Part shown: positions 2 to 50,556 of the stretch, in pieces
Layout of the letters: every line of letters starts with the position of its first letter
How positions within the stretch are numbered: position 1 is the stretch's first letter
Assembly (NCBI GenBank): GCA_036874045.1
Contig: JAZBRI010000010.1
Coordinates: forward strand, 4,794,001-4,858,000
Reading direction: 5' to 3'
Source of the DNA: Cymodocea nodosa
Lineage: Eukaryota; Streptophyta; Magnoliopsida; Alismatales; Cymodoceaceae
Length of the DNA stretch: 64,000 nucleotides
The notes under the pieces: generated by a model
The model's input: the letters and a program-made list of their open reading frames with translations, nothing else
Databases searched by the model: none
Told to the model about the DNA's origin: nothing
Made by a program: the position numbers and the translations under genes

Positions 2-334
2 AATTGGAGAAATCACCCGAATCTATCTTGGAGAAACAACAATTTCCAGGGAGGAGAAAATATAAATGACAAAAATATAAGTTATGAAGCATTAATTGAA
101 CAAGGATCTAGAATAGAGAAGTTAGAAAAGATAATTCAACAATTAAACAATCATCTAGATCTTGTATTTGGAAATGCTACCATTCAAAATCAAAATATAA
201 ATAGAATACCCCCTAGATAGAAGGAATCAATAGAAGTTAGACCTATGGGAGGATTGCCAATGCAAGCAATACCTAACCCTGTCAATAGAGTTGTTAATGA
301 AATTGATACCTCCTAAGGGAGGGAAGTTGAATGA
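2..334 (+). pseudogene. gag C-terminal tail, copy A
   Basis: Reading frame 2 starts inside gag with the motif NWRNHPNLSWRN, a signature of Athila-type gag tails, followed by a glutamine-rich, coiled-coil-like segment and a tail with ESIEVRP and NEIDTS, ending in TGA at 332-334. Two premature stops interrupt it: TAG at 218-220, where the copy in element 1 has Gln, and TAA at 314-316. The capsid part lies left of the window. The tail ends about 220 bp before the F-box ORF, as in copies B and C. The spacer 335-554 is AT-rich and carries GTTGAGTTA-type short inverted repeats around 422-490. Confidence 0.8.
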
Positions 335-554
335 AGTAGTATAACTAAAGTAACTATGTATAATATAGTAAGTAGAAAAATATAAAAGAAAAAAAAATGT
401 AATTTTAATTGTAGTTAGTAATATCGTAGAGTTATTACTTAACTCAATGAACTTAGTTTGTTGAGTTATGACCTAACTCCACGAGGGTATGTAAATAGCT
501 ATGTTAATTTTGTCTCTGTTAAATTTTTGTTTATGTTATACAGAATCACAATAG

Positions 555-3515: not shown

Positions 3516-3527
3516 GTATAGGAGAAG
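3516..3527 (+). promoter_or_regulatory. Polypurine tract next to LTR, copy A
   Basis: AGTATAGGAGAAG directly before the TG of the LTR. Copies B and C have AGTATGGGGGAAG or a close variant at the same place. This is the expected plus-strand primer of reverse transcription. Confidence 0.75.
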
Positions 3528-5505: not shown

Positions 5506-6319
5506 ACTCTTTTAAGAACTTGGCATAGGTAGGTAATTGCTCTATTGCATCTAGTAATGGAATGCTAATCCTAACCTATTCAAAGATTTCTCTCATCTTA
5601 TTACTCTAGTCAATATCCTTATATGAAGTTCTTAATCTATGGGGAAAAGGGGTAGGTTGACTTTCTAAAGGAATACTTACCTCGAATACCTTACCTTTAC
5701 CCTTTTTATTACCTAATAAAATTTCATTTTCAGAGTCTTCATTTAGTTGATTAGATGAACCTAAATCATCTAAAGGGACACTCATCAGTATAAGAGGAGT
5801 TTCCTTTTCAGGAATGCTCACCTCTCTCCCGGACCTTAGAGCAACATAAGTTTCAACTGATTCATCCTCAACCAAGGATGTTGATCTTAAATCTATGTTT
5901 TCATAACCATCTATGTCAATGGGGGCACTAGAGGCTTTTGCTAAGTTTAATAAATCCATAGAGGTGTTAAGTTCAGTAATTGCCTTAGCTAAGTTGACTG
6001 AAGATTCAACACAAGGGATATTTCCTATAGAATTTTCCATTTTAATTTCACAACTATAGCTACTAGTGTCATAAACATCAGCATTATAATTTAAATTTGG
6101 CATAGATAGGCTAACATTAGAACTAGAACATGCACCTACATCATTATTTAGCATATAAAATGGGCAATCAACATCAACATGATTATTCAATTTGCATTTA
6201 GAACATGTAGGTGTCAAATCAAAACTAAATTCATCCATATTATAAATTAAATATTTATCTAGAATGACATGTAAATTTTCAACTAAATGAACAAACCGAA
6301 TGTATTCAATCAAGCACAA
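5506..6319 (-). pseudogene. CCHC-first gag/pol ORF of element D (truncated)
   Basis: ORF from 6319 to the TAG at 5606-5608, continuing open in the same frame with one more stop to the copy A junction. Near residue 38 it has a CCHC zinc knuckle (CSKCKLNNHVDVDC). Later come LRSGR and PFPHRL, the linker that in Athila-type elements joins gag to protease, then SIPLLDAIEQLP and AKFLK just before the break. Protease and pol are not present. No capsid domain was found between the primer site at 7699 and this zinc knuckle, the same CCHC-first arrangement as in elements 1 and 3. Likely role: nucleic-acid binding in the retrotransposon particle. Confidence 0.7.
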
Positions 6320-7698
6320 TCTTCAAGTGATTTAAGCAAATTTCCAACATAATAAAGGAATTGATAAACAATTACTTTTTCTTTTACTTGACACTTAATT
6401 TTCCATAATTCATTCAAATAAACTATTCTAATATCATGCCACTAAGTTCTAGATACAAACAACAATGCATATATCTTACAAACATTGTATATAATCTAAG
6501 TTTCATCTAAAACGAGTAATCATGGAATTTCTAAAACTAAACTGTACTACCTTGGCTTAAAAATTTTCTATAGAAATTTATACAACTTGAAAATTCACAC
6601 ATAAATATTTGTCTAAAAGGTACTTCTAGTTTCTAAGAAAAATTAGAGACAAAAATATTAAAAACTAAAGTATTATCAAAATCGTGTGAAACTTAGATAA
6701 CTCAGAATTTGTAATCTACAGAATAGCTCATTTTAGAAAAATTCTCTAGAAATGTATATAAATCCAAATATAACGTATAATACCTTGTTTGAAAGATAAC
6801 TACTGTAGTTTCATGGAAAAATTTCAAAAATAAGCTTTATTTAAACATGTAACTGTAGTTTCAATTAAAAGAATGCATGTTATGAAAAATTTACCCATAA
6901 AATAACATGCTGATAGAAATGAGATAGCTCAACCTAACTATCCGATTTTAATGTAATAAAATTGGATAGTTATGGGTGTAACCATCTGGTTAGGGAAAGA
7001 TTGGATAGTTATGGCTATAACTATCTGATTTTTTCATGAAGAGGTCGGATAGTTATACGCATAACTATCTGATCTTCATTAATATTGGTAAAATCTAATA
7101 TGTTAAATTTGAAAATTCACACAGAATTCTACATAACTCCAAATGAAACAAATAAATACTCGTTGGAAAGATAATTTCATCTAGTTTCTGGAAAAAATAA
7201 CTGAATTAAATTTTAAATACTTTCATAATAGCATATTTTCAAAATTCAATAGTAGAAACCTATCCAGAATTCTATAAAACATCCCTGTATTCTAAGATTT
7301 TTATCTTTTAACATACTAATCAGAATTTTATGCATAAGTACTCAAAAGAAATCTCAGAAACTTAGTATTTCAGGAAAAATATCATAAAAATGAGTTATAA
7401 TCTCGTGCACATTAAAAATTTAAATTTCTAGATAGGAAGATTCTATCTTAATAATTTATACACAAAGATTATGATTACTCCATTAAGCTACTTGTCACCA
7501 AATTATACACTTCATTAAACATGTGACAAGCTATTTAGATAATGAAGAATTGAACACATAGAATGACCAATCCATGTATCTATTTCCTTGCAAACAAATA
7601 CAAACAATAACTCAACAAGAAAACAAACAAAACTAGAATAATATAGAGGATATTAAATATTGCTAATCATCTAATAAATCATTTTAAAGCACCAAAAC
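6320..7698. other. Leader region of element D, no gene seen
   Basis: AT-rich stretch between primer site and ORF without a convincing open frame. It contains a cluster of inverted repeats with arms such as GATAGTTAT at 6920-7070; two are perfect with 4-base loops (7004-7025 and 7048-7069). Confidence 0.6.
7004..7069. repeat. Two palindromes with GATAGTTAT arms
   Basis: GATAGTTAT, loop GGCT, ATAACTATC at 7004-7025; GATAGTTAT, loop ACGC, ATAACTATC at 7048-7069. Both have 9-bp perfect arms and belong to the AGTTA...TAACT core family found in other elements of this window. Confidence 0.8.
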
Positions 7699-7716
7699 TC
7701 CCCAGCAACGGTGTCA
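7699..7716 (-). promoter_or_regulatory. Primer-binding site of element D (tRNA-Asp type)
   Basis: On the minus strand TGACACCGTTGCTGGGGA, six bases after the LTR end. It matches the complement of the 3' end of plant tRNA-Asp(GTC), TGGCGCCGTTGCCGGGGA, with three differences, all C-to-T or G-to-A type. Confidence 0.75.
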
Positions 7717-11645: not shown

Positions 11646-11650
11646 AATAT
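11646..11650. repeat. Target site duplication, left side of element 1
   Basis: AATAT, directly before the TG/CA LTR end at 11651 and identical to 29883-29887 after the other LTR. It fixes the true ends of element 1. Confidence 0.85.
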
Positions 11651-11714
11651 TGTTTGGGTTTTTAGGCAGCACTAGAGAACTTGTTTAGTTCCCTGACAAC
11701 GGCGCCAGAAAACT
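11651..11714 (-). repeat. Primer-site-like extension units at the LTR 3' end
   Basis: Two units of 31 bp (11651-11681) and 33 bp (11682-11714), each reading on the minus strand AGTT.TCT, then a primer-site-like sequence, then ..ACA. The inner one contains TGGCGCCGTTGTCAGGGA, almost the perfect tRNA-Asp complement. They lie inside the LTR as fixed by the target duplication. Confidence 0.75.
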
Positions 11715-11963
11715 TGTTTGGGTTTGTTAACTTTCGTTGTAACTTAGTTAATTTATCTTTATGCTTATCAGTAATTCCTTTTTAGAAGTCAACAAACAAT
11801 CTTTCACACAAATTAGATATTAATTCCCATTTGTATTTTAACTGCAAGTGCACAGTGTACATTGTATTTGTGTGCAAGTACAAGTTGATCCCATAGAGAA
11901 TTGAGGTAGAATTGTGTACTATTCCATTTTTAATAATGAAATTTATATATTTAGTAAGCACTC

Positions 11964-11987
11964 CGTTGAGTTATAGCTAACTCAACG
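11964..11987. repeat. Palindrome CGTTGAGTTA / TAACTCAACG
   Basis: Perfect 10-bp arms separated by loop TAGC inside the LTR. The 5' LTR has the same palindrome at 28290-28313. Confidence 0.85.
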
Positions 11988-12868
11988 AACTAACCTCGTG
12001 GAATTGAAGTAACTCAACGAAGTTATCTATCCAGTTTAATATTGCTATTTACAGAGGAATTCGGCCAACCATTGGGCGGTTCCATAGATTGTAAATAACA
12101 TCAATTAAGATCTATAATGCTAGTTAATATTGGATTTATTATTCAACAACACTAACATTCAGATATTTCAAACAGTAACCATTAAAATCTTTAAGTATCA
12201 GAAACGATTCAATTCAGTAAACTGTAAAACTATTTTCTATTTTCTAAATTAAACAAACATGAAACATTCAAAACTCTAACAATGATAACATCAATCACGA
12301 TACAAAACAAACAATTCAACACTCAAATATTAACTATAAACACAGATAAGTTGTTTTTGATATTTTTGTTTTGATATGATCATGGAAATGGGCGAAAGGT
12401 GAAATGTAAAAGTAATCTCTATTGACAGTAAAAACTTCTGTCACTACATGCGACGCGATAACACCACTAAAAACTTAATCACTTACAATTCTGCCTCCTC
12501 TCCCTATAGAATTGCGAGTCTAGATTTGCAAGATGATCTCCTCTTTAGCATACTGGCATCAACCCAAAACCAAGGCTAAAAGCTTTACGATCTCTTGAGA
12601 TATGAGTCGGTGGTTGGTGAAAACAGCTTCCCTTCTCGTGACATGATCACTCCTCACAGTGGTTGTTAGGCACTGTGCTTGGCTTAGAATTGACCCGACA
12701 TCAAGAAAGTATTCTCACAGACCTCCGATGGTTGGTGATTGTGGTGTGATGGTTGTGGTTGTGGTGGTTGGTGTGGTACTTCAGGGAACTTCCTACGCTG
12801 CCTGCAGATAGCTTGATTTGTCCTCCTCTACACACATTGACCACACTTTTTTCTTCTTTTCTCTTTTT

Positions 12869-12876
12869 CTTTTATA
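12869..12876 (-). promoter_or_regulatory. TATA box in 3' LTR of element 1
   Basis: TATAAAAG on the minus strand, same position in the LTR as in copies A and C, followed by an AG-rich leader. Confidence 0.5.
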
Positions 12877-13573
12877 ATTCTTTAGTGGTAACTGCTTCTG
12901 CTTAAATGATCGATTGTATTTCCTTCATTTATATCAACGATGGTGATTTCTTCTCCCTTCCACGAGTGAATTCCTGCGTGATATGTGCAATCGTGGTTTT
13001 CATTCGAATGTCTTGTTTCTATAACCGCTACAGTGGCATATTAGAAAATAAATGGTCCATGGAGTTACAAATAACTCAACGGACTTACTTTATTGATTTA
13101 ACTATAAAACACGTGCAATAAAGAAATAAGTTGCTAACCTAATGCGTTACCTTAGTGTATACTCATGTAACTCAACGCGTACAGTTATGCTAACTTAATG
13201 AGTTAAACATGTGTATCTCACGTGACATAATAAAGTATTTAAATTCAATACGTGCATAAATCTAACTTAACGAGTTGTTACTGTTCACCTAAATATTCTC
13301 TTAACATTTAAAACATAACTGTCTAGTACATGCAATATAACTCTTTGAAATAACAGAAAATTCGGATACTAAAGAATTAAAAACCAGCAACTTACCAATA
13401 GTTCAGAAATGTATTAAATTAACGCTAATTCCTTGAAATTATGCAGATTCTTTCATTAAAGCATATAATAGTGCAATTATAACATAATGGCTTAATTTTC
13501 ATATGATAAGCTAAATATTATGCAATTAACCATCATTTAATCGTTAATATTATGCACTTTTTCATTCTAAACA

Positions 13574-13587
13574 CTTCCCCCATACTT
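13574..13587 (-). promoter_or_regulatory. Polypurine tract of element 1
   Basis: AAGTATGGGGGAAG on the minus strand immediately before the TG of the 3' LTR. It fixes the orientation of the element. Confidence 0.85.
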
Positions 13588-15284
13588 AAATTTTGCTAGT
13601 CCCTTAGCAAACTAAGATTTAACTAATTGGTCTTTCTAAAGTGCTAGACTTAATTCTTCATTTCGCTCTTCTTTAGAATAATAAATTAGATTACTATATA
13701 TATATTCTGTATGCTTCAGTAATCTATTTTAACTTTGTTTTCTCCTTTTCAACCTACAAATATATTTAGAATATATGTAAATTTCATACAAAATATATCA
13801 GATCACTTAGGTGTTAATTATATTATCATTTTTTCTTTTCAGCATCTTTCATCTTGAATTTTCCAATATGATTTCCAGAATAAATTTCAAGTACATTCGA
13901 ATCAAAACACAATCCAATTCAATATGATTAAGAAAAGTAGAATAAAGAATTATATCTCAAATAAACAACTTCAAAAGTCAAATCTAAATTCATACTTCAG
14001 CAATTTTAGATAACAAAAGATATACTCGATTCAAAAGATATCTGTATTTCACAAAACTCTTGTATCTTTTCAAAACAGTATATGCATATTTGTACTTTCA
14101 AAAGTTAATTTGACAAGCTTGAATCATACAAGAGCTTTCTAGTGTACCCATGTATCGAGCTTTCAGTCAATAATCCCAAATCTGATCAGGATCTTAGGTT
14201 GCCAGATTTAAAGAGTCCTTTTTTAGGTCAACAATCCTTACATACCTGTCTGCTCAAGTGCAAAAGGCTCGTGATCAAACAAGTCAATAAACTCTCAAAA
14301 TTTTTCTCTTTTTTTTTCTTTTTCTTTTCAACACAGTATATGAACGCATTTCATTAATACAGATGTAATAAAACACAAATCTCGTATATTCCTACTCTTA
14401 TTATTTATTAAAAATATGAATCTATATCAATAAGCTCATACCTTTTTTGTAATTTAATAAGATCTACACATAAATCATTCTACAAGTTTAATCAATCAAA
14501 TTAAATGTATCATTGATCATATGTATTTCCTTTAATCCAAAAATCAACATTTCAGCTATTTCAGGATTTTAGATAATTTACTAAGTTTTAGTTAAACATT
14601 CTGATTTCTTTTTTAAAATCGTGAAATTGTTAATCTCATAAATTTCAGCAAAAACATAAGATACTATATCTAGATTTGTATGAGTAGTAAAATTAGTAGC
14701 ATCTTATATTAAATTATAAATATAACATTTCAGTAGTTACAGTTCTTTAAAAATTTTTGCAGTTCTATTTTAATTCTTCTACTAACAAAATTTACATGGC
14801 TGTTACTTTAATTACCTCCCCCCCATACCTACATTTTGCATTGTCCTCAATGTAAAAGATTTTTTAGTAAATACAGTAATTGTAGCGGGCATGAATATTG
14901 TTTCGTTGACTTAGCACCTAACTCAACAAACTTAATTCGTCGAGTTAATGAATAACTCCACGAATTGAGTTTAAATGTAAATTTAGGATAGGTAATTAAT
15001 CACATACCTTGTTCTTTTGTATCTCCTTCAATATCTTCCGATTTTTTTTTTTTTTTTTTGAAAAACTTTTCATTCACAATTAAAAGCAGAATATATAATA
15101 ACAAAACTTAACTTTTTAATCAATGTCTTGTGTGGAACCCAGGCTCCTATGCCTTTGGTGGCTCACAAGCAAGCCAGTTGGTTTCCTAGAACAGATACCA
15201 ACAAACTGGATTGATATTTTTGTTGTTTTTTTTTCTAAAAATAAATGTAGACTACACACAACATTAAAAACACAGAATCATACT
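13588..15284 (-). other. 3' untranslated region of element 1
   Basis: No sense gene. Holds the copia-like UTR block (about 13700-14800), a conserved antisense open frame (14142-14357, plus strand, GTG-started), an internal polypurine tract at 14815-14832, GTTGAGTTA-type repeats near 14905-14965, and the conserved block after the F-box ORF at about 15120-15200. Confidence 0.65.
14815..14832 (-). promoter_or_regulatory. Internal polypurine tract, element 1
   Basis: Minus strand GTAGGTATGGGGGGGAGG, 1.2 kb before the LTR-adjacent tract, at the same relative place as in copies A and C. Confidence 0.55.
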
Positions 15285-16487
15285 TTAAGAACATGATTGA
15301 AAAGTAGTAACAAATGGAATAAACGTGTCAGTCCAAACAAACTTTTTAGGCATAATTCTTCTTGCTATTAATTCTATTTTAATGCAATTCGTGTTCCTTC
15401 TTAATTTGTAAACTTGCAGTATGTTATCAATACTAAATATAAGTGTATTTCCATTAATGAAATGAAATGCAGAAATAGATCCTCTTCTGTTCCAATATAG
15501 TGTAACTATTTCTATTTCTACATCTATTTCAATATATTCCTCTTCCCATTTCAATTTAGTTAGGTCTTTTATAATCCATATTTGAAATTTCTTCAATTCA
15601 TCCCACCATCTTATCAAACATAAAGTAGGATCATCATATTCATTATACCACATTCCTAATTGAATTTTATAATATTCTGCAGATGGTGGTTTAGCTATAT
15701 CACTTGGTATAGGTAATATTTCTATAAAATCATCATAACTGTCTATGCTTACTATGTACAAATCAAATCTAAATGCAACTGATATATCTGTGACTAAATA
15801 TATATATCCATCAAGTATGACATGCATGTTGTTAATTAATGATTTCTGTCCTAGATATATCATATTGTTTTCAGTCTAAGATCTATCCAGAAAATTATAC
15901 ACACTTAAGCATAAATCTTCATCCCAATTTCTAGTAGGTCTCCAATAATATAATTTTTCAGGAATGGTCAAATTTTTATCAGAAAATACTAAAGCTGACC
16001 CACAATTTTCAGTTGATACTTCATATCTATTAGGCCTTCCTATATTGCATTCTTCTCTTGTGAGAAGATTTCTAATTAAAATATCAGGTAACAGAATTGC
16101 ATACCTTGGTTTGGTTCTGTGTATAATTAATCCTTCATCCATCCTCATAATATGATCTATTCCTTCTAATGTATTGGGTGGAATTCCAGCAGTTTCTTCC
16201 ATATTCAGATATTCATAGCTAATTGAACTACGATTAAATGACTTCCATAAAAATCCATCTCTAATCTTAGTCATTTTTGTAGCTTGTAGTCCATGAAAAT
16301 ATTTTTCTCTAATACAGTCTTTAATATCCTTTGATGCACAACACAATCTACACAGATCTTTAGCTAACAAGTTACTCAGTACTTCCCTTAGTGCATCTTG
16401 TAGTAATTTCATCAATTCCGTTTGTTGTGATTTTGTATGACATAAACAAAAATTAATAGAGACAAAATTAACATAGCTACTACACAT
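15285..16487 (-). pseudogene. Retroelement-borne F-box-like protein, copy B
   Basis: Most complete copy. One frame segment runs from 16487 to a TAG at 15876-15878; after it the protein continues as a 192-codon stretch to the stop at 15285. The F-box part reads ELMKLLQDALREVLSNL, then KDLCRLCCASK. The ATG used in copies A and C is ACG here, so the only upstream ATG is at 16487. The C-terminal region carries LYYWRP, MWYNEYDDP, IRWWDELKKFQIW and AFHFINGNT and ends TTFQSCS, as in copy A. The TAG replaces the Trp of copy A. The ORF sits 155 bp after gag. Inferred role: adapter of an SCF-type ubiquitin ligase; target unknown. Confidence 0.75.
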
Positions 16488-16641
16488 CCTTGTGGAGTTA
16501 GGCCATAACTCAATGGACTAAGTTCGTTGAATTAAGTAATAACTCTACGATACTATTAACTATAAATAAACTTACATTTTTTTTTATATATAATTTTTTT
16601 CTACTTACTATATTATACATAGTTACTTCAGTTATGATGTT

Positions 16642-17724
16642 TCATTCAGTTACCCTCCTAGAGGAGGTATCAATTTCATTAACAATTCTGTTTATAGGGT
16701 TAGGTACTGCTTGCGTTGGCAATCCTCTAGTAGGTCTAACTTCTATTGATTCTTTCTGTTTAAGGGATATATTTCTATTTATATTTTGATTTTGAATTTC
16801 AGCATTTCCAAATACAAAATCTAGATGATTGTTTAATTCAGTTAATTTAACTTCAAGCATAGTGCTTGAATCTATTTCATGCATTCCCCTTAGTAATATT
16901 CTTTTATCTGCAATAACTTTAGCTAAATTCTCCCATTATGCAGTTCTTTTTGCAAAGTTTTCTAAGTATGCCCATGCTTCTTCACTACACAATTTTAAAA
17001 ATCCATTCTAACAAGTAGATTCTAATAAAGATTTCGTTGAAACATCTATGCCTTCATAAATTATACCTATCAATTGTGCTTTACTCATTGCATGATGTGG
17101 ATATTGAGTTAGTAAATCTTTAAATCTTTCAAAATATTTCCAGAATGATTCTCCTTGTTTCTGGCTACACATTAATATTTCCTTTTTCTTTTTAATTGTT
17201 TGATGTGTTGGATAATATTTTTCCAGAAAAACAAAGCAAAATTCAGTCCATGTAGAAATTGAATTAGGCGACATAGTATATAACCATCTCTTAGCTGTGT
17301 CTTTTAAAGCAAAAGGGATATATCTAAGTTTAATAGCATCTATATTCATGTTCGGCATTTTCATCATTTGACAAACTTCGTTAAATTCTCTAAGGAAATA
17401 ATAGGCATCCTTTCTTTCTAATCCATGAAAATGTGGCAATTGACTAATATAATTATATTTCAATTCAAACCTATCTCCTTCAAAGTTTGGCAATCGAATA
17501 CATGAAGGTTCATCAACTAATTCAGGATATAGAATTTTCCCTAATGGTTTCTCTACTAGAGCAGCCATATCTTTGTTCTCTTTTAAAGAAAGGTTAGCTG
17601 CACCCCTAAGGATTTCATTAAAGTCTAATTCAGTCAATTTTTTAGTACGTCTCTGTGTTAAATAATCCTGTGTAGGTGTTCTTACTAATCGTTTAGTGCT
17701 AGGAGAACGAATCCATGTGCTCAT
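16642..17724 (-). pseudogene. gag capsid ORF located after pol, element 1
   Basis: ATG at 17724; one frame to TGA at 16642, broken by TAG at 17008-17010 and TAA at about 16937. Residues about 85-235 match the retrotransposon gag (capsid) domain of Athila type: LPHFHGLERKDAYYFLREF, IKLRYIPFALKDTAKRWLY, STWTEF, FLEKYYPT, GESFWKYFERFKDL, CPHH-like PHHAMS, IYEGID. The usual CCHC knuckle and NWRNHPN motif before the tail are missing here, so an internal deletion is likely (copy A retains NWRNHPN). It lies 5' of the F-box ORF and 3' of ORF X and pol, the reverse of the usual gag-pol order. Would form the particle shell. Confidence 0.85.
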
Positions 17725-18721
17725 AAACTCTTAACATAAATAAGATAGCAGAAGATTAATTACATACCAGTTTGAAGCTTTATACTCAGTAAATAGTTGT
17801 TGACGGATGAAGTTGAATCAGCTGCTTTTCCTTCTAGTTCCCCAATGAATTTTCTTTTCTTAAATGCTGGTAACTTGTAAACAACATTTTGTTCTATATT
17901 TATAATGCATGTCCATAAAGCAAATGAATCTTGTTGCAAGAATGTGACTTGTAATGTGTAGTATGGTTCCTACGTTTATGGTACGTGTGCCACTTCTAAT
18001 TTCAAATTTCAGTAACCGCTAAACCCATAAAGTTTCATTTGTGGCTAAAAGAATAACTGTTTAGCTTAATCCATGAACTAACCTTGTTGAGTTACAGATA
18101 ACTCAACGGAATAGCTTCGGTTACTGTTGCTAACTCCACGGACTAACTTCGTTGAGTTACAGATAACTCAACGGAGTGACCTTATATTATATTATTGACC
18201 TCGTGGAGTTAAGGTTAACTAAACAGACTTACTTCGTTGAGTTAACACTTAGCTGATTTTCTAAAACTTACTCCTCGTATTAACTTCTATATATAAATTT
18301 TTCTTGCATTTTTCCAACTTAAATAAAATTAAATACATGACATTAATGCAGCATTCTATTTAAAACTCATTTAAATCTGAACATTATATAAATTTTTAAC
18401 TTGTAGTACATTTCATGTTATGCAAAATTTAAATTTTTCTTTACAACATGTAGATATTTTCAGGCATTAATCTGTTAACGTGCCTTTAATCTTGTCCTTC
18501 AGCAGATTGCATAATGTTTCACAATTTATATAATATTCAAGATAATTCATTCATTTATATCATTCATTCACAAACAAGCATGTAAAAATATCTGAGAAGT
18601 ATACATTCATTAATATGAATAGTTTCACATTACATTCAGTCAGATATCTTTCATACAATTATAAGTACAAGTAGACGAACAATACAATTTAATCTCTCTT
18701 CCTAAGTTCATCTACTTCCTT
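17725..18721 (-). other. Spacer between ORF X and gag in element 1
   Basis: No gene seen. AT-rich with a cluster of GTTGAGTTA...TAACTCAAC palindromes at 18060-18250 on the gag-proximal side. Could hold a promoter for the downstream gag and F-box ORFs, but no clear TATA/leader pair was singled out. Confidence 0.5.
18086..18172. repeat. Two palindromes with GTTGAGTTA arms
   Basis: GTTGAGTTA, loop CAGA, TAACTCAAC at 18086-18107 and again at 18151-18172; both have perfect 9-bp arms. Confidence 0.85.
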
Positions 18722-20921
18722 TTAGAGTTTTTCTAATTGTAGCTCTAATTGGTTAATTCTTTCTACAGCTCCTGTAACTCCTCTAGAAGGTTCAACAATT
18801 TCTGCAGCAGCATAGTTTCGGTACTCTTTCACTGAAATGGTTCTTGATCTTATCTTTTTGAATGCCCATTTTGTGAAATCAATACTATCCACCATCAGTA
18901 GTGGAATTAGAACTCCATAAAATAATTTTTTCTTCACTACTTTTAGCTTGGAGATAAATACTGCAGACTAATTTATCTGAATTCTATTTACAACTGCATA
19001 TGTAACCCACTTGACAAATTGACTCAATTCTATATCATGGTTTTGTTGTTGGTAGACATTCTTAATTAAAATGTTAGCTATCATGTGTGCTTTACCATTT
19101 ACAGTCTATTTAATAATGGCACACTAGGATTGATAGCCAAACTATCTTTGATTTCCTACTCTATCCATTCAACGGTAGTTGTGCTTTCCAAAATTTCTTT
19201 TCCTTCATTCTTCAATCCAAGAATGTTGTGGACAAGCTCTGGTGTTATCTGTACATCAGCTTCCTCCACGTTGGAAATTAATTGTCCTTCTTCCTCTCTT
19301 AAATTAGCATAGAAACAGGGCACTAGATTTTCATATAATGCATGCCATTTCTGTTGAGAAATAAATTACAGTAGACCCTAGAACTCAAATAATTCCTTAA
19401 TTTCTTGCATTTCGTCCCAATTTACTAGTCTATTGTAAATAATATCATAACCCCTAATCTCTTGGTATTTGTGATAAGCTTCCTGACTCCAAAAGTGTAC
19501 TTCATTCAGAACTGTTGCTTCAGTTTGGTCAGGAATGTGACTTTGTTGTTCCAGAGGGGTTTGTTCTTGACTTTTCTCTTCCATAGGCTGAACTTGAACT
19601 TGTGAAAATGCTCTGCAAATTCCTGAACATTTGCTTCTGTTTGTGGTGGTGAGCCGACAAAACTCTCCACTATGTCTTGAATACTTTTCATAAATTGCTG
19701 AAGAGTTACTTGCTCTTTAGTGGAATCTGTAGAGTCATTCCTTTCTATATGTACTTGTTCAGCCTCTTGTTTAGTTTCTTCTTTTTCTTCTTCCTCCTGA
19801 CTTCCAATCTGCATTGTCACTGTTCTTTCTGATTCTATGGCAAATTGGGATGGAGTTACGGGCAAATCAGCTTCTGCCCTAATTTCTGTTTCTTCTATTT
19901 GTACAGGCTGCAGACTAGTTTCAGCCTATTTTTCTTCTTCTCTATGCTCTTGCTGTTACTGCTCTTGCTCCTCTTCAGAATCGGATAGTAGGTTTACAAA
20001 AATTGGCTCTGTAGGCCCTATTGATATTGGTACTTCAAATTTAATCTCCTCTTGATATTCAAGCACTATCTCTTTTCCTTTCCTTCTTCTAATTAATTGT
20101 GCCTAGTCTTTCTCTTTATCATCTGAAATTAAATCCACAAAAATAGGCTCTATAGGCCTTTGAGCCATAGGTACTAGCTCTTCTTGTTTAATTCTTTCTA
20201 TAATTACTGGTCTCGAAGGACCAGCTTCAGCTTCTCTTGCAGCACTTGATTTAGCTACTACCTGATGTTGTTCAACTTTAATTTTGTACTAGGCCCTCAA
20301 CTTTTCTTCGACCCTTCTTTTCCTTATGGCATCATACAAAATATGTGCCTTGGCTATAGCTATTCCTTCTTCATCTCCTTGGTCTCTTACTATTTTGACC
20401 AAGCTAGAAAACTCTTTCTCTTCTTCTTCAGTTCTCGGCCAAGCAAATGCTACTCGTGGTAATGGCTCTGTTGGCTGAACTGGACGTCATAACTGCTATT
20501 CCTCAGGGACAGGTCTTTTAGCAGTCGGTTCCTCCTATTCTTCTTCTACTTGTTGCTGTCGCCATATTTCACCCCTTACACAACCAGCAATGCACCTTTT
20601 GAACCATAATCTGGCCTTGCGTTGGATTAGCTCTAGGGCTACTTAGTTATTTGGCCTAATTTTTCTTTCTTTACTAACAGCAATTTCCATTGCTACTTTG
20701 ATTCTTGTTTCCATTATCTAGGGTATTTGTATACCCAAATCTACTAAAACTCTTCTCAATTTGAAAAGTTCAGATTCTACCTTCTGTAGCTCTTTTTCTC
20801 TTGTGGTATTCTTGATTTTCTATCGCTTGTGCCATTCCTCTAACTCTTTCAAAAATTCTGATGTGTCAACAGCATCTTCCCAGAACTCGGGTGTCATCTT
20901 TGTCATCGTGGAGTTACGCAT
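18722..20921 (-). pseudogene. ORF X of element 1 (plant transposon protein-like, degraded)
   Basis: Begins with ATG at 20921 (MRNSTMTKMTPEFWEDA) and can be followed, with frame shifts and about ten stops (seven TAG), to 18722. The first half is Glu/Lys/Gln-rich and probably coiled coil, with repeated PIEPIFVDL-like segments. The second half has ELFEF, a hydrophobic LL.FI segment, FYANLREEEG, VQITPELVHNILGLKNEGKE and later KKLFYGVLIPL and RTISVKEYRNYAA. Comparable segments occur in ORF X of the copia elements (33277-35886 and 30033-31951). It resembles the putative plant transposon protein domain seen after pol in Athila-type elements. Function unknown. Confidence 0.65.
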
Positions 20922-21125
20922 TGGCACGAAGTCACTTTGATCTCTACTATTCTAAGTTTTAAATGATTCTACAGATAATGCCCCCCAAAACCCAAAGTTT
21001 AAGATAAATAAGCCCTAAGTTTAGGTAGGTAATCGAGTCATTTACCACACTAACTCTCACTCTCTCATTTGTGGAATTACGATTAACTCCACGGACTAAG
21101 TCTGTGGACTTAACTACAGTACTCT

Positions 21126-21214
21126 GTTGAGTTATAGTTAACTCAACGGGGTAAGCTCGTTAACTTATCCTAGACTTAACGGAGTAAGTTCGTTGAGTTA
21201 AGCGTAACTCAACG
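21126..21214. repeat. Palindromes GTTGAGTTA / TAACTCAAC
   Basis: 21126-21147 has 9-bp arms and loop TAGT; 21191-21214 has 10-bp arms CGTTGAGTTA / TAACTCAACG and loop AGCG. Both are perfect. Confidence 0.85.
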
Positions 21215-21283
21215 GACTTCCTGTAAAGTTATATCTAATAAAAAATACTTAAGATAATAATTTTTTCTTTAGTCAAGACCGAA

Positions 21284-21575
21284 GAGCTCCGGTTTAACCG
21301 CTTTTACTTTTCCATATTTTAAAAATTATTCAGTCAAACCGTTATATTCCTCGGTTGAACCGAAATTAAATATTTTCTTTCTTTCCTCATTTTTTTTACT
21401 AGTTGAATCGATACTATGCTTCGGTAAAATCGACATTTTTACTTAATAATATATAGATTTTTTTTTATGTTTTGGTCAAACCGATGGATCTTGTCGGTTG
21501 AACCACAATGATTTATTTATTTATTTTTCTTGTGCTTTGGTAAAATCGATAACTCCTTTCAGTTTAACCGTGACT
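21284..21575. repeat. Cluster of GGTTNAACC palindromes
   Basis: Includes CGGTTTAACCG at 21290-21300, TCGGTTGAACCGA at 21351-21363, and near-matches GTCAAACCG, AGTTGAATCGAT, CGGTAAAATCGA, GGTCAAACCGA, TCGGTTGAACC and CAGTTTAACCG at 30-60 bp spacing. Not seen elsewhere in the window. Confidence 0.75.
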
Positions 21576-21633
21576 ATGTATAAATAAATAAATATATATA
21601 TATATATATTTAATATGATAAAATGATTTCTTA

Positions 21634-24286
21634 CTAAGTAAAGCTCGAGTAGTCCTCCTCTCTTACTTCTTCTATAATTCCAAAAGAACTTTTTGGTATC
21701 TTCAAAATAGGTCTAAGTCTTTGTCCATTTACTTTAAATATGTTCTGATTTTTAGGATTTTGAATTTCAATAGCTCCATAGGGATACCATCTAGATCTTA
21801 ATTTTCCTAGATGGTTATGGAGTCTAGTCAAGTAAAGATATACTTGTCCTATTTCAAAGGTTTTCGGAATAATTTTCTTGTCATGCCAGAACTTCATTTT
21901 CTCTTTTTCTCTTACAGTTTTTGAATAAGCTTCATTCTTAAATTCTTCTAATTCAATCAATTGTATTTTCCTTTTTTCAACCGCTTGATTTAAATTAGTG
22001 TTCAGAGTTTTTAATGCCCAATAAGCGTTATGTTCAATTTCAGCTGGTAAATGATAACTTTTTCCATATACTAGCCTAAAAGGTGACATACATAAGCTTG
22101 TCTTATAAGCAGTTCTATAAGCCCAAAGTGCATCTATCAATCTATTAGCCCAATCTGTTCTAATAGGATTCACTATTTTTTCTAAGAATAACTTAATTTG
22201 TTTGTTTGCACTTTCTACTTATCCACTGGTTTGCGGATGATATGATGTTGCAATTTTGTGGTTTACTCCATATTTCTTCATTAAGGCTTCAAAACTTCTA
22301 TTACAGAAATGAGTTCCTCTATCACTGATAATAGCTTTAGGTATTCCAAATCTGGCAGTTATATTGGTTCTTATAAAATGTATTACCACTTTGTTGTCAT
22401 TAGTTCTTGTAGGAATAGCTTCTATCCATTTAGATACATAATCCACCCCCAACAATATGTAATTAAATTGATTAGACATAGGAAATAGACCCATAAAATC
22501 TATTCCCCACACATCAAAGATTTCAACCACAACAATAGGATTAAGAGGCAGCATATTCCTCTTTGATATTCTTCTGATTTGTTGACACTTTAAACAACTT
22601 AAATAGTATTTATGAGCATCTTTGAATAGTGTTGGCCAATAAAATCCACATTGTAGAATTTTGGCAGCAGTTTTCCCTAAACCAAAATGCTCTCCACATG
22701 CTTGGTCATGGTAGAAAGACAATATACTCTAATATTCAATTTCTGGAACACACCTCCTTAAAACCAGATCAGGACATTTCTTAAATAAGTGTGGGTCTTC
22801 CTAATAGTAATATTTTACTCTTCAAAAGAACAATTTCTTATATTGTCTATTCCAATCTTTAGGTGTTAAACCAATAACTAAGTGGTTTACTATGTCTGCA
22901 TACCAAGGCATTATTTTGATGGTTATTAGCTGTTCATTAGGAAAATTATCCTTAATTTCAATATTTGATTTTTCTATTCGTAATCTGGATAAATGATCTG
23001 CTACTACATTCTCACAACCTTTTTTATCTTTAATTTCTAGATCAAATTCTTGTAATAACAATATCCATCGGATCAATCTAGGTTTAGTCTTTTTCTTTGC
23101 TATTAGGTGTTTTAAAGCTGAATGATCCGTGTACACTATCACTTTAGCTCCAATCAGATATGATCTAAACTTTTCTAAGGCAAACACAATGGCTAATAGC
23201 TCTTTTTCAGTAGTTGTGTAATTAACTTGAGCATCATTTAAGGTTTTGCTTACATAATGAATCACTCTAGGAGATTTTTCTATCTTCTGTCCCAACACTG
23301 CTCCTACAGTAAAGTCAGATGCATTGCACATTAATTCAAATAGATGGCTCCAATCAGGTGCTTGTATTATAGGAGTTGAAATTAAGCTAGTTTTAAGCTT
23401 GAAAAATGCTTCTTTGCAATTTTTTTCAAAGTTAAATGGGACATCTTTTAATAGATTAGTTAAAGGTCTAGCTATTTTGCTAAAATCTTTAATAAATCTT
23501 CTATAAAATCCAGCATGTCCTAGAAATTATCTAATATCTTTTACTGATTTAGGTTCTGGTAGATTAGAAATTATTTCTATTTTAGCTTTATCTACTTCCA
23601 ACCCCTTCTTTGAAACAACATGTCCCAAGATGATTCCTTGATTAACCATGAAGTGACATTTTTTCCAATTTAGAACTAGATTTTTTTCCACATAGTGTTT
23701 TAATACTTGGTCTAAATTTTTTAAACACACTTCATATGAAGTTCCATAAACAATAAAATCATCCATGAATATTTCTAAAAAATCTTCAGTCATTCTAGTG
23801 AATATGCCCTACATACACTTTTGAAAGGTGGCTGGTGCATTGCATAATCCGAATGGCATTTTCTTAAAAGCATAAGTTCCAATAGGATAGGTGAAAGTTG
23901 TTTTCTCTTGATCCTCTAATGCTACTGGAACTTGGTTATATCCTGAATACCCGTCTAGGAAATAAAAATATTCTTGCCTGCTAATTTTTCTAGCATTTGA
24001 TCTATAAAATGTAAGGAAAAATGATCTTTCCTAGTTACAGCATTTAGCTTTCTATAGTGTATACACACTCTCCAGCCTGATTAAATTCTAGTAGGTATCA
24101 AGTCCTGACTTTCATTCCTAATTACTGTTAATCTTGATTTCTTGGGAACTACATGGATTGGACTAACCCATGAGCTATCATAAATCGGATAAATTATATC
24201 ATTATCTAACCATTTTACTATTTCCTTCCTGACTACTTCTTTAAGGTTTGGATTTAATCTCCTCTCAGGAATTTTAACTAGTTTAG
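21634..24286 (-). pseudogene. pol of element 1: RT, RNase H, integrase
   Basis: Starts at the edge of the nested solo LTR with KIPERRLNPNLKEVVRKEI, the N-terminal RT region of Athila pol, then GWRVCI.YRKLN, and in a second frame FMDDF (RT active site), [28 protein letters not shown]. RNase H follows with [10 protein letters not shown] (23331-22822), then the integrase zinc finger (H..H, CLKCQQI), core DDE region (GIDFMGLFP, IISDRGTHF, YHPQTSG) and a C-terminal part with LRSRW and VNGQRLRPI, ending at 21634. From 23793 to the end all pieces are in one frame interrupted only by single stops, mostly at Gln or Trp positions; a shift separates the first RT segment. Copies the element RNA and inserts cDNA. 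Confidence 0.9.
24282..24286. repeat. Target duplication of solo LTR, left
   Basis: TTTAG, identical to 25916-25920 on the other side of the solo LTR. Confidence 0.85.
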
Positions 24287-25915
24287 TGTTTGGATATTTT
24301 AGAAGTTTTAAATTTATAAACCGCAAGTGCACGGCATCCAATGAAGTACGTCGGAAAGTACGAGTCGAACCACAGAGAAATGGGGATAATCTAGGATTCT
24401 AATTACAAGAATATGATAAGCAAATACTTTCCAAAAATAGATTACACTACAAAAAAAGTAAGTCCACGGATTTTTAATTTATCGATCAATCAACAGATTA
24501 GACTGAAAATTTAATCTCAATCAGATCTGTTAATTTGGACTTCAGATAAAAATTTTCACACTTAAAAACGCACGAATGGTATGACTGAAAATTCGGGGAT
24601 TGAAAATGATGCATAAAATTGGAAACTTCTGCGCGTTAACAACAGTATCTTAAAAACCTTATAAATCCCGAATTACTCAACCAAAAATTACAAAGTCAGA
24701 TGTGTTGCAAAATAGACAGAATTTAGATATTAATGAAATATTTATTCGAATTTTTAAGTGATCTGAGTTGTGATAAAAATAGGTTACAATCACGACAAAA
24801 GAGTCTCAGACCGAATTCTGTGCTCGATAGAGTTATAGCTTCAAAATGGCAACAAATCTTCTCGGATTGCTATGAAATTTTATAGAATCACAGAAGACTT
24901 ATAATATCACAATTATGATTCTTTTCAGAATTTTAAGTTAAACATAATCGCTCCAGAACACGTATGAACTCTCGGATTAAACACAGAACAGAAAAACGCA
25001 GATCTGCAAACAAGCATGCGAGATCTTCATCATATACGAATTTTTTTTCACATAACACAATAAGATTTCTTCATAGGAGCATCCGTAAACATCAATACAT
25101 GATAATAGAACATCAATCACGTCTGTTTCTATGATTTTAGCAATGAAATAACAAGGTTTTTCGGATACAATTGCATAAACACATAAAAATACGAATCTGT
25201 CTACTATGAACTATTTGATACAATAAAACTTGAAGAAACTTACATCTAAATACATAAATCTATTGTAAACTTAAAGATAAACATAGATCTGAAGTGTAGG
25301 AAGACGTGGAGTGAAGAAATGATAGAGGAAAAATGCTCACAACAACAAGATGTGTGGCTGCCTTTTCTTGTATATGAGGGATGAAGGATTGTTGGTGGAG
25401 ATGACTTATGGAATGAGCTTTGAAGAGGAATCCAAGTTGAAAGTGTGGAGAAATGGCTGCTGGTCTTCTTCCCTCCTTCAAGATCACGAGCTCCCCTTTG
25501 GAAGTGTGGAGGACGGCTGCTGGAATGAGGTGGAGGTCCAAAAGAGCAAGAGCTAGACCTAGATGTGCGTCACTCTCTTTTATATAGAGAATTTCCAAGT
25601 TTGGAGATCCATCTTTGATTCAACGATTGGGATTAAATCCCACTTGATTTTCTTTCTCTAATCTTCAATTTCCATGATCTTCTATTGAATTATAAACTTT
25701 TCACAACAATAAATACAACAAAATATCAAGTCATCCAAAAAATTCATAAATGATGCATGTTTGAAATAATTTCCTACTTTTAACTGTATAAAATGGGGAT
25801 TGGTTCTTATTGGTTAAATAATGAAATAAATGCATAATATGACTTTAATAAATCTCATGTAAATCTACTTAACCAATAAGATCCTATAAAAATATGCAAC
25901 ATTTTAATCCAAACA
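24287..25915 (-). repeat. Solo LTR in pol of element 1
   Basis: 1,629 bp with TG/CA ends (minus strand TGTTTGGATTAAAATG ... TCCAAACA) flanked by TTTAG on both sides. The solo LTR at 57665-59292 is the same family in the other orientation. A TATA box (TATAAAAG, minus) lies at 25577-25584 with a leader after it. No primer site or internal sequence, so it is the product of LTR-LTR recombination. Open frames at 25260-25598 are LTR leader sequence, not genes. Confidence 0.9.
25577..25584 (-). promoter_or_regulatory. TATA box in solo LTR
   Basis: TATAAAAG on the minus strand, followed by GAGAGTGA; same place in the related solo LTR (57995-58002). Confidence 0.6.
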
Positions 25916-27869
25916 TTTAGCATTCTCTTCTAAATATATGTGGTGACAACATAAATTGCAATTAACCCTTTTATGTTAATCATAGTCCATCTTATTGCTT
26001 CTTTATAAGTTTTTACTACATCTTTTAATTTAGCAATTTGATCCTCTTTTAAATCTGAAGCAATAGTGATTAGACATGTTCATTTTTCTTCCAAAAATAT
26101 ATAGGTTAAATCAGGAGGTAAATGTTTTAATTCTAACTGTTGCCTATCAGAAGCTAGAGCTCCTAATTGAACAACATTAATTTCTTCTTGATCTCCTTCT
26201 ACATTTATGCTTTCACTTTCTTCTAAAATCTCAGAATTAAGTTGCCTATTTAATTCTTCTTGAATCACATCATCTAGCATATCTCCTTCATCCTCCAAAA
26301 AGTCTATAATATGTAAGGACATTTCTAGCTCTTCAAACTTTTCTAGTTTAAAAAGGTTTAATTGAGTATCCTCATTACCATATGCTAACTTCATAATTCC
26401 AGTTTTACAATTTATAACAGCCCCTGATGTTGCTAAAAATGGTCTTCCTAAAATTAAAGATGATCACTATTTTTATGCTTAATTTGTTGGGAATCCAAAA
26501 TTACAATATCAATAGGATATATGAAGTTTTTGATTTTAATTAATACATCCTCTATTTTTCCTCTAGGGTATCTTATACTTCTATCTGCTAATTGAATAAT
26601 AGTCCTAGTAGGGATTAAGCCTTCTAATCCTAAGGATGCAAATATATCACTTGGCATAATATTTATACCTGCACATAGGTCTATTAAGGTTCTTTCTAGA
26701 ATGGTATTTCCTATGGTACATGATATAACAGAGATTCTAGGATCAGATAACTTTTTAGGAATTTGTGGCAGAAATAGGGAACTACTTTGCTCAGCTAAAA
26801 AGACCTTCCTAAGAACTTTTTGCTCTCTTTTCTTAGTACACTAATCCTTAAGAAATTTAGCACAAGGTGGCATTTTCTGCAATAGATCTAACAAAGGAAT
26901 GTTAACTTGTACTCTTTCAAAAATTTCTCTAATTTTTTCTTGCTTATTAGGTATTGTTTGTTGTAATCTTTCAGGATAGGGTGCTAACGATTGTGATTTA
27001 AAGGATTCTTTTTCTTTCATTTGATTTGTTTGATCATTTTTAGTCTCATTTTTAGATTTAAATTTTTCTTCATTGATTGCTATATTTTTAGATATTACAT
27101 TCTCATTATCATTTTGATTTTTGCTCTTATCCACCTTCATATTATTTTCATTTTGAATTCATGGTGGTATATTAGTTCCAGATCTTAATGTTATACATAC
27201 ATCTTTCAGATTTTTGTTACTCTCATGATGTTCTTGTATATCATTTTTGTGATTATGATCTTCAATTGTTTTTAGTTTTAAAGTGCATTCCTTAAATTCT
27301 CTTGCGTTAGTATTTTCTTTTGTCTGTATATCTTGCAAATTATGTAGATCTATAACATTATAATTATCAATGTCCTATTGCATAACTTGTATTTTCATTG
27401 TATATTCGTCCAATGCTTTTAGTTTTCTTTCCAAATCATCTAATCTCATTGCATTCAATTTTTGATCAATTTTCATTATGGCTTTTTCAGTTTCTTATAT
27501 AATATCAATTTTTGGTTCTGCATATGCTTCCTTATAGTTTAATTAGTTGACTTCTTGTTGTTGACACATATATTATTCTAGTTTGTCCATGTTTTGTTCT
27601 AAACTACGCTCCAATTTGTCATACCTATCCCAAACTTCATTGTCTCTCAACATATTACACCTTCTAAGCTGACCATCAGTTAGGTAAACTATAGGATTCT
27701 CATACTCAGCTCTATTATATTGAATATAATTCATCTATTGTTCATGTGCTCTAACCATCTACAACCTTCTCAATTTCAAACAATCAGAGATGTCGTGACC
27801 TTCCAATCTGTAGAATTCACATATGCTAACTACAGGTTTCAAAAATCTTTGAGCATAAGCATATGCTAT
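25916..27869 (-). pseudogene. CCHC-first gag/protease ORF of element 1
   Basis: First ORF after the primer site. The expected start (ATG in element 3) is ATA here at 27869. The N-terminus has a zinc knuckle directly at residue 17, CEFYRLEGHDISDC, with the second Cys changed to Tyr. It continues through a Lys/Glu/Asn-rich coiled-coil region, VCITLRSGTN, LAPYPERLQQ, NIPLLDLLQKMPPCAKFLKD, then an aspartic protease core (TLIDLCAGINIMP, where element 3 has DLGGS; later YPIDIVILD), and a region before RT. It is broken by several stops and shifts and by the solo LTR. No capsid domain precedes the zinc knuckle; the capsid is at 16642-17724. The protease would cut the polyprotein. Confidence 0.8.
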
Positions 27870-27950
27870 ATTCTCAATTAGAAAATATAACACACAACAC
27901 TCCTCAGCTATTAAAATAGAACAGCACTCACAGTTGCTTAGCTACTCAAC

Positions 27951-27968
27951 TCCCCGACAACGGCACTA
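27951..27968 (-). promoter_or_regulatory. Primer-binding site of element 1 (tRNA-Asp type)
   Basis: Minus strand TAGTGCCGTTGTCGGGGA, seven bases after the LTR CA end. Three differences from the complement of plant tRNA-Asp(GTC) 3' end. Better-matching copies at 28017-28033 and 11694-11707 lie inside the LTR and are duplicates. Confidence 0.75.
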
Positions 27969-27975
27969 GAAAACT

Positions 27976-29882
27976 TGTTTGGGTTTTTAGGCGGCACCAG
28001 AGAACTTGTTTAGTTCCTCGACAATGGCGCCAGAAAACTTGTTTGGGCTTGTTAACTTCCATTTGTAACTTAGTTAATTTATCTTTATGCTTATCAGTAA
28101 TTCCTTTTTAGAAGTCAATAAACAATCTTTCACACAAATTAGATATTAATTCCAATTTGTATTTTAACTGCAAGTGCATAGTGTACATTGTATTTGTGTG
28201 CAAGTACAGGTCGATCTCATAGAGAATTGAGGTAGAATTGTGTACTGTTCCATTTTTAATAATGAAATTTATATATTTAGTAAGCACTCCGTTGAGTTAT
28301 AGCTAACTCAACGGACTAACCTCGTGGAATTGAAGTAACTCAACGAAGCTATCTATCCAGTTTAATACTGCTATTTACAGAGGAATTTGGCCAACCATTG
28401 GGCGGTTCCACAGATTGTAAATAACATCAATTAAGATCTATAATGCTAGTTAATATTGGATTTATCATTCAACAACACTAACATTCAGATATTTCAAATA
28501 GTAACCATTAAAATCTTTAAGTATCAAGAATGATTCAATTCAGTAAACTGTAAAACTATTTTCTATTTTCTAAATTAAACAAACATGAAACATTCAAAAC
28601 TCTGATAATGATAACACCAATCACGATACAAAACAAATAATACAACACTCAAATACTAACTATAAACACAGATAAGTTGTTTTTGGTATTTTTGTTTTGA
28701 TATGATCATGGAAATGGGCGAAAGGTGAAATGTAAAAGTAATCTCTATTGACAGTAAAAACTTTTGTCACTACATGCGACGCGATTACACCACTGAAAAC
28801 TTAATCACTTACAAATCTGCCTCCTCTCCCTATAGAATCGTGAGTCCAGAATTGAAAGATGATCTCCTCTTCAGCATACTGGCATCAACCCGAAACCAAG
28901 GCTAGAAGCTTTATGATCTCCTAAGATATGAGTTAGTGGTTGGTGAAAATAGCTTCCCTTCCCGCGACGTTATCACTCCTCACAGTAGTTGTTGAGCACT
29001 GTGTTTGGCTCGGAATCAACCCGACATCAAGAAAGTATCCTCATTAACCTTCGATGGTTGGTGATTGTGGTGTGATGGTTGTGGTGGTTGGTGTGGTACT
29101 TTAGCGAACTTCCTACGCTGCCTGTAGATAGCTTGGTTTGTCCTCCTCCGCACACACTGACCACACTTTTTTCTTCTTTTCTCTTTTTCTTTTATATTTC
29201 TTTAGTGGTAACTGCTTCTGCTTAGATGATCGGTTGGATTTCCTTCATTCATATCAACGATGGTGATTTCTTCTCCCTTCCACGAGTGAATTCTTGCATG
29301 ATACGTGCAATCCTGGTTTTCCTTCGAATGTCCTGTTTTTGTAACTACTATAGTGGCATATTAGAAAATAAATGGTTCATGGAGTTACAGATAATTCAAC
29401 GGACTTACTTTGTTGATTTAACTATAAAACACGTGCAATAAAGAAATAAGCTGCTAACCTAACGCGTTACCTTAGTGTGCACTCATGTAACTCAATGCAT
29501 ACAGTTATGCTAACTTAACGAGTTAAACATGTGCATCTCACGTGACATAATAAAGCATTTAAATTCAATATGTGCATAAATCTAACTTAACAAGTTGTTA
29601 TTGTTCACCTAAATATTCTCTTAGTATTTAAAACAAAACTATCCGGTACATGCAATATAACTCTCCGAAACAACAGAAAATTTGGATACTAAAGAATTAA
29701 AAACCAACAGTTTAGAAATGTATTAAATTAACGCTAATTCCTTGAAATTATGTAGATTCTTTCATTAAAGCATATAATAGTGCAATTATAACATAATGGC
29801 TTAATTGTCATATGATAAACTAAATATTATGCAATTAACCATCATTTAACTGTTAATATTATGCACTTTTTCATTCTAAACA
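27976..29882 (-). repeat. 5' LTR of element 1
   Basis: Minus strand TGTTTAGAATGAAAAAG ... CCCAAACA, 1,907 bp, next to AATAT at 29883. Contains the palindrome 28290-28313, a TATA box at 29189-29196 and the two primer-site-like units at its 3' end (27976-28006 and 28007-28039), exactly as in the 3' LTR. Confidence 0.85.
29189..29196 (-). promoter_or_regulatory. TATA box in 5' LTR of element 1
   Basis: TATAAAAG on the minus strand; this would be the start region for the genomic RNA of element 1. Confidence 0.55.
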
Positions 29883-29887
29883 AATAT
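29883..29887. repeat. Target site duplication, right side of element 1
   Basis: AATAT, matching 11646-11650. Confidence 0.85.
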
Positions 29888-50504: not shown

Positions 50505-50556
50505 TAGAAGTTTAAAAATTAAACAAGTTAAAAATAGAAGTTAGCAAATCAATACA
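50505..50556 (+). repeat. LTR 3'-end remnant of element 3
   Basis: Ends AGCAAATCAATACA, as the LTR of copy A does at 5505. Two AAATAGAAGTT direct repeats 30 bp apart lie at the junction with element 2. Confidence 0.65.

Follow-up and report, generated by a model that had tools for sequence, protein, structure and literature searches.

The 64,000-nucleotide stretch of the Cymodocea nodosa genome analyzed here (contig JAZBRI010000010.1, positions 4,794,001-4,858,000; hereafter, the window) contains a long terminal repeat (LTR) retrotransposon, element A, in which the gag capsid is encoded downstream of pol. Element A occupies positions 11651-29882, and because all of its domains lie on the minus strand, it reads from 29882 to 11651. 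A preliminary description of this DNA had proposed that the LTRs, a primer site, a polypurine tract, and an AATAT duplication delimit a single unit, and this is borne out. The LTR pair is 92.7% identical over 1925 columns (blastn) and has TG..CA termini, the AATAT target duplication is present at both sides (11646-11650 and 29883-29887), a tRNA-Asp-like primer site lies just internal to the 5' LTR, and the polypurine tract AAGTATGGGGGAAG adjoins the 3' LTR. These features identify A as an LTR retrotransposon. The Kimura two-parameter distance between the LTRs is 0.069, corresponding to 2.6-4.9 million years at two plant rates. The reading frames are decayed, with stops or frameshifts interrupting gag, pol, and an F-box gene.

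A tRNA-Asp-type query matched four sites in the window, compared with none in 100 shuffles. Each LTR of A contains an extra site of this type (11690-11707 and 28015-28032), approximately 40 bp from its inner end, which would fit a previous copying cycle that drew the primer site into the LTR. A second tract resembling a polypurine tract is located near 14812-14850.

Gene order and capsid position in element A

The features of element A are given below in its reading direction; L001 is a control element with canonical gene order, described later in this section.

27976-29882, minus strand: 5' LTR, 1907 bp (blastn against the other LTR)
27951-27968, minus strand: primer binding site, tRNA-Asp-like (3 mismatches of 18)
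27762-27941, minus strand: start of the pol frame, with zinc-knuckle motif (pattern search)
26844-27374, minus strand: linker with LRSG and PYPERL motifs (tblastn to L001 2220-2375, E 6e-9)
26083-26840, minus strand: protease region (Pfam E 0.007; tblastn to L001 protease region E 2e-26)
24287-25915, no strand assigned: later insertion, not part of A (TG..CA ends, target-site duplication TTTAG)
23530-24286, minus strand: reverse transcriptase (RT; Pfam)
22825-23526, minus strand: end of RT and RNase H (Pfam)
21637-22728, minus strand: integrase, comprising H2C2, rve, and C-terminal part (Pfam)
21068-21234, minus strand: hairpin array in the spacer between integrase and open reading frame (ORF) X (motif scan, RNA folding)
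18725-20486, minus strand: ORF X, decayed (weak PF20167 match)
18064-18248, minus strand: hairpin array in the ORF X/gag spacer (motif scan, RNA folding)
17011-17724, minus strand: gag capsid, downstream of pol (PF03732, Retrotrans_gag, 1e-19; capsid profile 1.1e-55)
16645-16935, minus strand: gag tail, no zinc knuckle (stop at 16642-16644)
16492-16538, minus strand: hairpin repeat in the gag/F-box spacer (motif scan)
15288-16487, minus strand: F-box gene, comprising F-box and F-box-associated region, with one interrupting stop
14903-14961, minus strand: hairpin repeat in the F-box/3' LTR spacer (motif scan, RNA folding)
13574-13590, minus strand: polypurine tract
11651-13573, minus strand: 3' LTR, 1923 bp (blastn against the other LTR)

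Pfam searches of the stop-to-stop pieces of A (20 pieces scanned) identified RVT_1 (E 1e-10 and 2e-7), RT_RNaseH (1e-35), and rve (5e-16); the protease match (0.007) falls below the cut-off, as does the match of ORF X to PF20167 (E 7e-4; 20 bits against a cut-off of 45). PF20167 denotes a plant transposon protein that a 3' ORF of Athila has been reported to contain (PMC11728184). The order in A is thus [zinc knuckle-protease-RT-RNase H-integrase]-ORF X-[gag capsid]-F-box-3' LTR, and the same order, all on one strand, had been correctly read in the preliminary description. The succession of protease, RT, RNase H, and integrase, with integrase last in pol, is that of Ty3/gypsy elements. However, the order given for this group is GAG-PROT-RT-RH-INT (RH, RNase H; PMC6317226), and A has no GAG before PROT; its capsid is found only at 17730-17011, after integrase.

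The position of the capsid was established with a hidden Markov model (HMM) built from 23 gag proteins outside the window, without A, L001, or a second element of the window, C. Applied unfiltered to 2098 six-frame segments of the window and L001, it matched the gag of A (17730-17011, E 1.1e-55), the gag of C (47659-47261, 6.4e-51), and the L001 gag-pol frame (2.3e-43); the next-best segment had an E of 1.5. The Pfam Retrotrans_gag match in A spans 17730-17008 (E 1e-19). Across the whole window, the HMM placed no capsid after any primer site, both window capsids sitting elsewhere, and a capsid overlooked near the primer site is ruled out by this externally built model. The predicted structure of the A capsid piece was poor (mean predicted local distance difference test score 60; predicted template modeling [TM] score 0.37). 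The 50 Protein Data Bank matches listed for it are capsid folds (best E 1.1e-3, TM-scores ≤0.45), which lends weak support to its identity as a capsid.

The zinc-knuckle pattern C-x2-[CY]-x4-H-x4-C occurs five times among window segments at least 20 aa long: where pol begins in A and in a partial copy, B; in a further frame at 6322-5609; in the gag of C; and in a Copia gag. After the primer site, it takes the form C-x2-Y-x4-H-x4-C in A and C-x2-C-x4-H-x4-C in copy B. These positions indicate that pol in A's family opens with a motif resembling nucleocapsid, behind which comes the LRSG linker. The LRSG/PYPERL linker of A corresponds to the one that joins gag to protease in canonical elements. 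The earlier proposals that the ORF after the primer site begins with a zinc knuckle and lacks a capsid, and that gag is split, are therefore upheld by the HMM and the motif pattern: the knuckle opens the pol frame, and the capsid resides in a downstream gene.

The control L001 and its counterpart L002 are plant contigs, 99.7% identical, that sit as contamination inside the bacterial records of Solirubrobacter sp. CPCC 204708 and Geminicoccus harenae CPCC 101083, both from the same culture collection. They contain an intact 2004-aa gag-pol frame in canonical order and offer homologous landmarks for every piece of A. In L001, capsid, zinc knuckle, LRSG, protease, RT, RNase H, and integrase share one frame, in contrast to A, where the capsid is separate and follows pol.

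A second element and partial copies in the window

Related sequences elsewhere in the window comprise element C, three partial copies of A's family, and an additional pol-frame start:

48174-50504, minus strand: element C RT (truncated), RNase H, and integrase (domain search)
46502-47899, minus strand: element C gag with capsid and zinc knuckle (several in-frame stops)
50516-54499, plus strand: copy B, comprising LTR end, primer-site region, zinc knuckle, protease, RT, RNase H, and part of integrase (no capsid)
62-5515, plus strand: copy 1, comprising gag tail, F-box, and 3' LTR (A's order)
56806-63925, minus strand: copy D, comprising gag tail, F-box, and 3' LTR (A's order)
5609-6322, minus strand: another pol-frame start with zinc knuckle and LRSG linker (no capsid between primer site and frame)

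Element C (50504-46502, minus strand) encodes RT, RNase H, and integrase, followed by a spacer of approximately 0.2 kb between the pol stop and the gag ATG, and then gag. Its Pfam matches to rve (E 3.8e-15, 49130-48717) and Retrotrans_gag (2.4e-18, 47659-47261) lie on one strand, and its gag, which carries the zinc knuckle CIACGIPRHIMEEC, ends in a tail with its stop at 46502. The ends of C are out of view because copy B truncates its RT and, on the other side, a Copia LTR starts 142 nt past gag. A capsid tree (26 of 26 rows) places A and C as sisters (support 94/93). An RT-RNase H tree built from 43 of 123 trimmed rows and constrained to unite A and C was 5.1 log units better than a quick free search (approximately unbiased test, p-AU 0.68); a grouping of A with C in pol is thus permitted, not demonstrated.

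Among the partial copies, the run from gag tail through F-box to 3' LTR is contiguous in A, copy 1, and copy D, and the run from LTR end through zinc knuckle to pol is common to A and copy B. Copies 1 and D leave the window before the expected start of the capsid. The frame at 5609-6322 starts 1.4 kb after a primer site at 7699-7716. By the capsid HMM, no copy in the window has a capsid ahead of pol, the arrangement that the preliminary description had named as evidence to the contrary. All four gag tails (A, C, copy 1, and copy D) are closed by stops, at one homologous position in A, copy 1, and copy D and a few codons later in C, and none reads on to LRSG and protease. Canonical readthrough from gag into LRSG-protease is found in L001 and in P0013 and P0018, Tasmannia sequences of A's own gag type.

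Profile scans of viral contigs yielded no further copies. Genome contigs gave no match with the capsid alignment, and the RT-RNase H profile recovered only the two contaminant contigs; a capsid protein search returned 12 matches among 141 candidates, all of them from short metagenome contigs without context. A predicted protein from Tanacetum coccineum (P0025) fuses an integrase tail to a gag capsid of other types and is probably a gene model drawn across neighboring elements.

The pol of A is interrupted by the 1.63-kb later insertion, for which copy B holds the matching uninterrupted site. A second copy of this insertion lies at 57665-59292, within the LTR of copy D, and both are flanked by 5-bp duplications. 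It represents either a solo LTR or a small non-autonomous element.

Hairpin repeats, expression signals, and the F-box gene

In the part of A that follows pol, each boundary between genes carries a hairpin repeat with a unit of approximately 33 bp, which also occurs in the LTRs. Its motif, GT[TG]GAGTTA/TAACTC[AC]AC, occurs 40 times in the window, against 0.9 expected and no more than 4 in 30 first-order simulations; the matches overlap, and since the motif was picked by eye from the spacers, these statistics are after the fact. Thirty-seven matches fall in A-family copies, two near the primer site and LTR of the element located at 6-8 kb, and one just left of A. Within the internal region of A, 14 of 16 matches lie outside the ORF spans as we set them; of the remaining two, one precedes the F-box gene's first ATG and the other falls at the ORF X edge. 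RNA folding of eight hairpin stretches gave z-scores from -0.9 to -6.2. A second set of short dyad repeats, of the CGGTTCAACCGA type, is found at 21270-21550, right after the integrase stop.

Candidate expression signals ahead of gag bear on the suggestion, made in the preliminary description, that the capsid comes from a subgenomic or internally promoted message; compared between the two elements, they are mixed. C has a good 3' splice-like site 3 nt ahead of the gag ATG (96th percentile of 114) and no TATA-like site ahead of gag. In A, the nearest YAG is 97 nt ahead of the gag ATG and is poor (4th percentile of 446); TATAAATA, approximately 180 nt ahead of that ATG, is one of 17 TATAWAWA sites in 14.4 kb, and an internal TATA box in A is not beyond chance in AT-rich DNA.

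The F-box gene is identified by a PF00646 match above the cut-off (E 1.2e-4; 22.3 bits against 20.5), together with a weak match to the F-box-associated region (0.034), and copies of it are present at 491-1692 (copy 1) and 62582-63616 (copy D). The ratio of nonsynonymous to synonymous substitution (dN/dS) is 0.40-0.61 between A and these copies (Fisher p 0.006 for copy 1 and 9e-5 for copy D). This resembles pol, for which dN/dS between A and B is 0.22-0.54 over six pieces, and indicates purifying selection: the F-box gene was retained as a working gene of A's family. Between the capsids of A and C, the nonsynonymous proportion is 0.31 and the synonymous proportion 0.73, with synonymous sites near saturation; the lower nonsynonymous value indicates that the capsid has been constrained since A and C split. 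The F-box gene is apparently a captured host gene; we found no described case of F-box capture by LTR elements in open-access PubMed Central (PMC) text.

One scheme would tie these features together. The hairpin precedes ORF X, gag, and the F-box gene and sits approximately 0.3 kb before the inner end of the LTR, and we speculate, with more doubt than conviction, that A represents an ancient pol-first lineage in which hairpins serve as promoter, splice, or template-switch signals for making or shuffling separate messages. The capsid would then be an independent gene, and the F-box gene a captured host gene under selection, perhaps degrading a silencing factor. P0 of poleroviruses, an F-box protein that degrades a silencing factor, provides an analogy.

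Interpretation and comparison with known systems

Element A most likely belongs, as an old and decayed copy, to an Athila-like Ty3/gypsy sublineage in which the native order runs LTR-primer site-nucleocapsid/protease/RT/RNase H/integrase-(extra ORF)-gag-(F-box gene)-LTR. With the same order present in the distantly related element C, this appears to be a lineage in which a supposedly fixed gene order was rearranged, and the order in A is likely derived, because the canonical order exists in its relatives L001, P0013, and P0018. Zinc knuckles are found at both ends in this group, C keeping them in the 3' gag and A only in front of pol. From this, we infer that an ancestor with canonical gag-pol gained or moved gag into the downstream slot of Athila's extra ORF, and that the 5' capsid was then lost, its zinc knuckle staying at the front of pol. 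Translation of the full-length RNA right after the primer site would yield a nucleocapsid-pol protein. Since gag is a separate gene with its own ATG and stop, a second message would be needed; the capsid may derive from such a shorter message, either spliced or started inside the element, with protease and assembly uniting the parts in the particle.

Several observations weigh against this interpretation. The join between pol and gag is spanned by only one A-family and one C-family copy (two of two spanning cases), and C is without visible LTRs. Every copy is broken or decayed, such that the activity of the pol-gag layout is read from copies and selection and is not seen. The capsids of A and C are each nearer some outside gags (58%) than each other (50% over 133 columns), and the branch uniting them in the capsid tree is not starred. 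For RT-RNase H, many database rows show higher identity to A (up to 76%) than C does (66%), and C stands 110th, near the bottom of the rows listed by identity to A; pol distances alone do not pair the two elements. The gag tail, moreover, is not constrained, given its dN/dS of 1.0-1.6 and the extra in-frame stop found in copies 1 and D approximately 11 codons before the LP-NP motif (copy 1 has one further stop beyond those of D). Finally, the splice and promoter signals disagree between A and C.

Some of these points would also be expected if A were a one-off recombinant of complementing elements with the same LTR, a pol carrier and a gag/F-box carrier, or a tandem pair from which the middle LTR and the outer gag and pol were deleted, with C a coincidental pol end beside a gag. 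The A-family join is seen once, copy B contains only the 5' half, and copies 1 and D contain only the 3' half, although the latter two run off the window. The missing LTRs of C are compatible with such an origin, P0025 illustrates that integrase tail-gag neighbors do arise, and mutually helping gag-less and gag-only plant elements have been described (BARE-2 and TR-GAG; PMC7730604, PMC11728184). We nevertheless regard a recombinant as unlikely. The order is common to two divergent elements that pair up in the capsid tree, A retains neither an LTR nor a primer site between pol and gag, the gag frames end before protease in all four tails, and the pol frames of A, B, and 5609-6322 all open at a zinc knuckle without a capsid.

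Far less probable still is a separate, later insertion of the gag-F-box stretch (approximately 13.6-18.7 kb) into a capsid-less element. The related hairpin arrays in the spacers flanking ORF X could pass for its ends, but the same motif occurs in the LTRs and in the gag/F-box and F-box/polypurine tract spacers. For the interval 13574-18700, raised in the preliminary description as a possible insertion, neither separate LTRs nor a separate primer site or target duplication was found, whereas the true insertion at 24287-25915 is recognizable from the duplication flanking it and from its uninterrupted counterpart in copy B. A nested insertion of gag and F-box was rejected on the grounds that three copies share the contiguous gag tail-F-box-LTR run. 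As for an assembly artefact, the window is a dense nest of related repeats in which two elements could be misjoined; yet the outer ends of A carry matching LTRs and a matching 5-bp duplication, and C repeats the same order elsewhere in the window, leaving a misjoin scarcely credible.

In LTR retrotransposons, the placement of the capsid ahead of the enzymes is regarded as fixed, and it underlies the setting of the capsid-to-enzyme ratio. A sublineage living with the reversed order would show that gag can be expressed alone; its capsid-to-pol ratio would be set at the RNA level and not by frameshift or readthrough, and the ratio question would become testable in plants. Gag-pol is the common organization, with additional ORFs placed after pol (PMC7264820). 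The reference survey on which plant element classification is based removed elements with domains in an unexpected order "in every case" as likely mispredictions (PMC6317226), so that such lineages may sit unnoticed in existing genomes. Our search of open-access PMC text found no described LTR element with pol before gag or with out-of-order domains, in agreement with the earlier statement that no described Athila lineage is known to have this order.

A tRNA-Asp-type primer site is usual for Athila, and A matches it with the 3 mismatches in 18 noted above. Athila-like traits of A further include the 5-bp duplication, long LTRs, and the order and sequence of RT, RNase H, and integrase; its post-pol ORF, with a PF20167 match below the cut-off, may correspond to the extra ORF of Athila. 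The placement of A in Athila is tentative: identities to L001, which has the canonical layout, are 63% (RT-RNase H) and 66% (integrase), and 7495 of 7988 scored candidates have E ≤ 1e-30. Some Athila elements bear an additional sense ORF (PF20167/PF03078 or env-like) between pol and the 3' LTR (PMC11728184, PMC7264820); in A, this slot also houses gag and the F-box gene. A differs from Athila in its separate capsid gene after pol, in the opening of its pol frame at a zinc knuckle, and in its extra F-box gene.

Foamy viruses produce Gag and Pol from different messages, with gag first and Pol made from a spliced message. In A, these roles would be swapped, the capsid coming from the second message. 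An additional RNase H marks Tat elements; a single RNase H region was found among the 20 pieces of A scanned, and a decayed second copy was not searched for. A resembles Ogre and other Tat elements in its large size, extra ORFs, and tandem repeats outside coding parts. Half of Retand elements carry arrays between pol and the 3' LTR (PMC11963269). In these Tat elements, unlike in A, gag precedes pol (PMC6317226).

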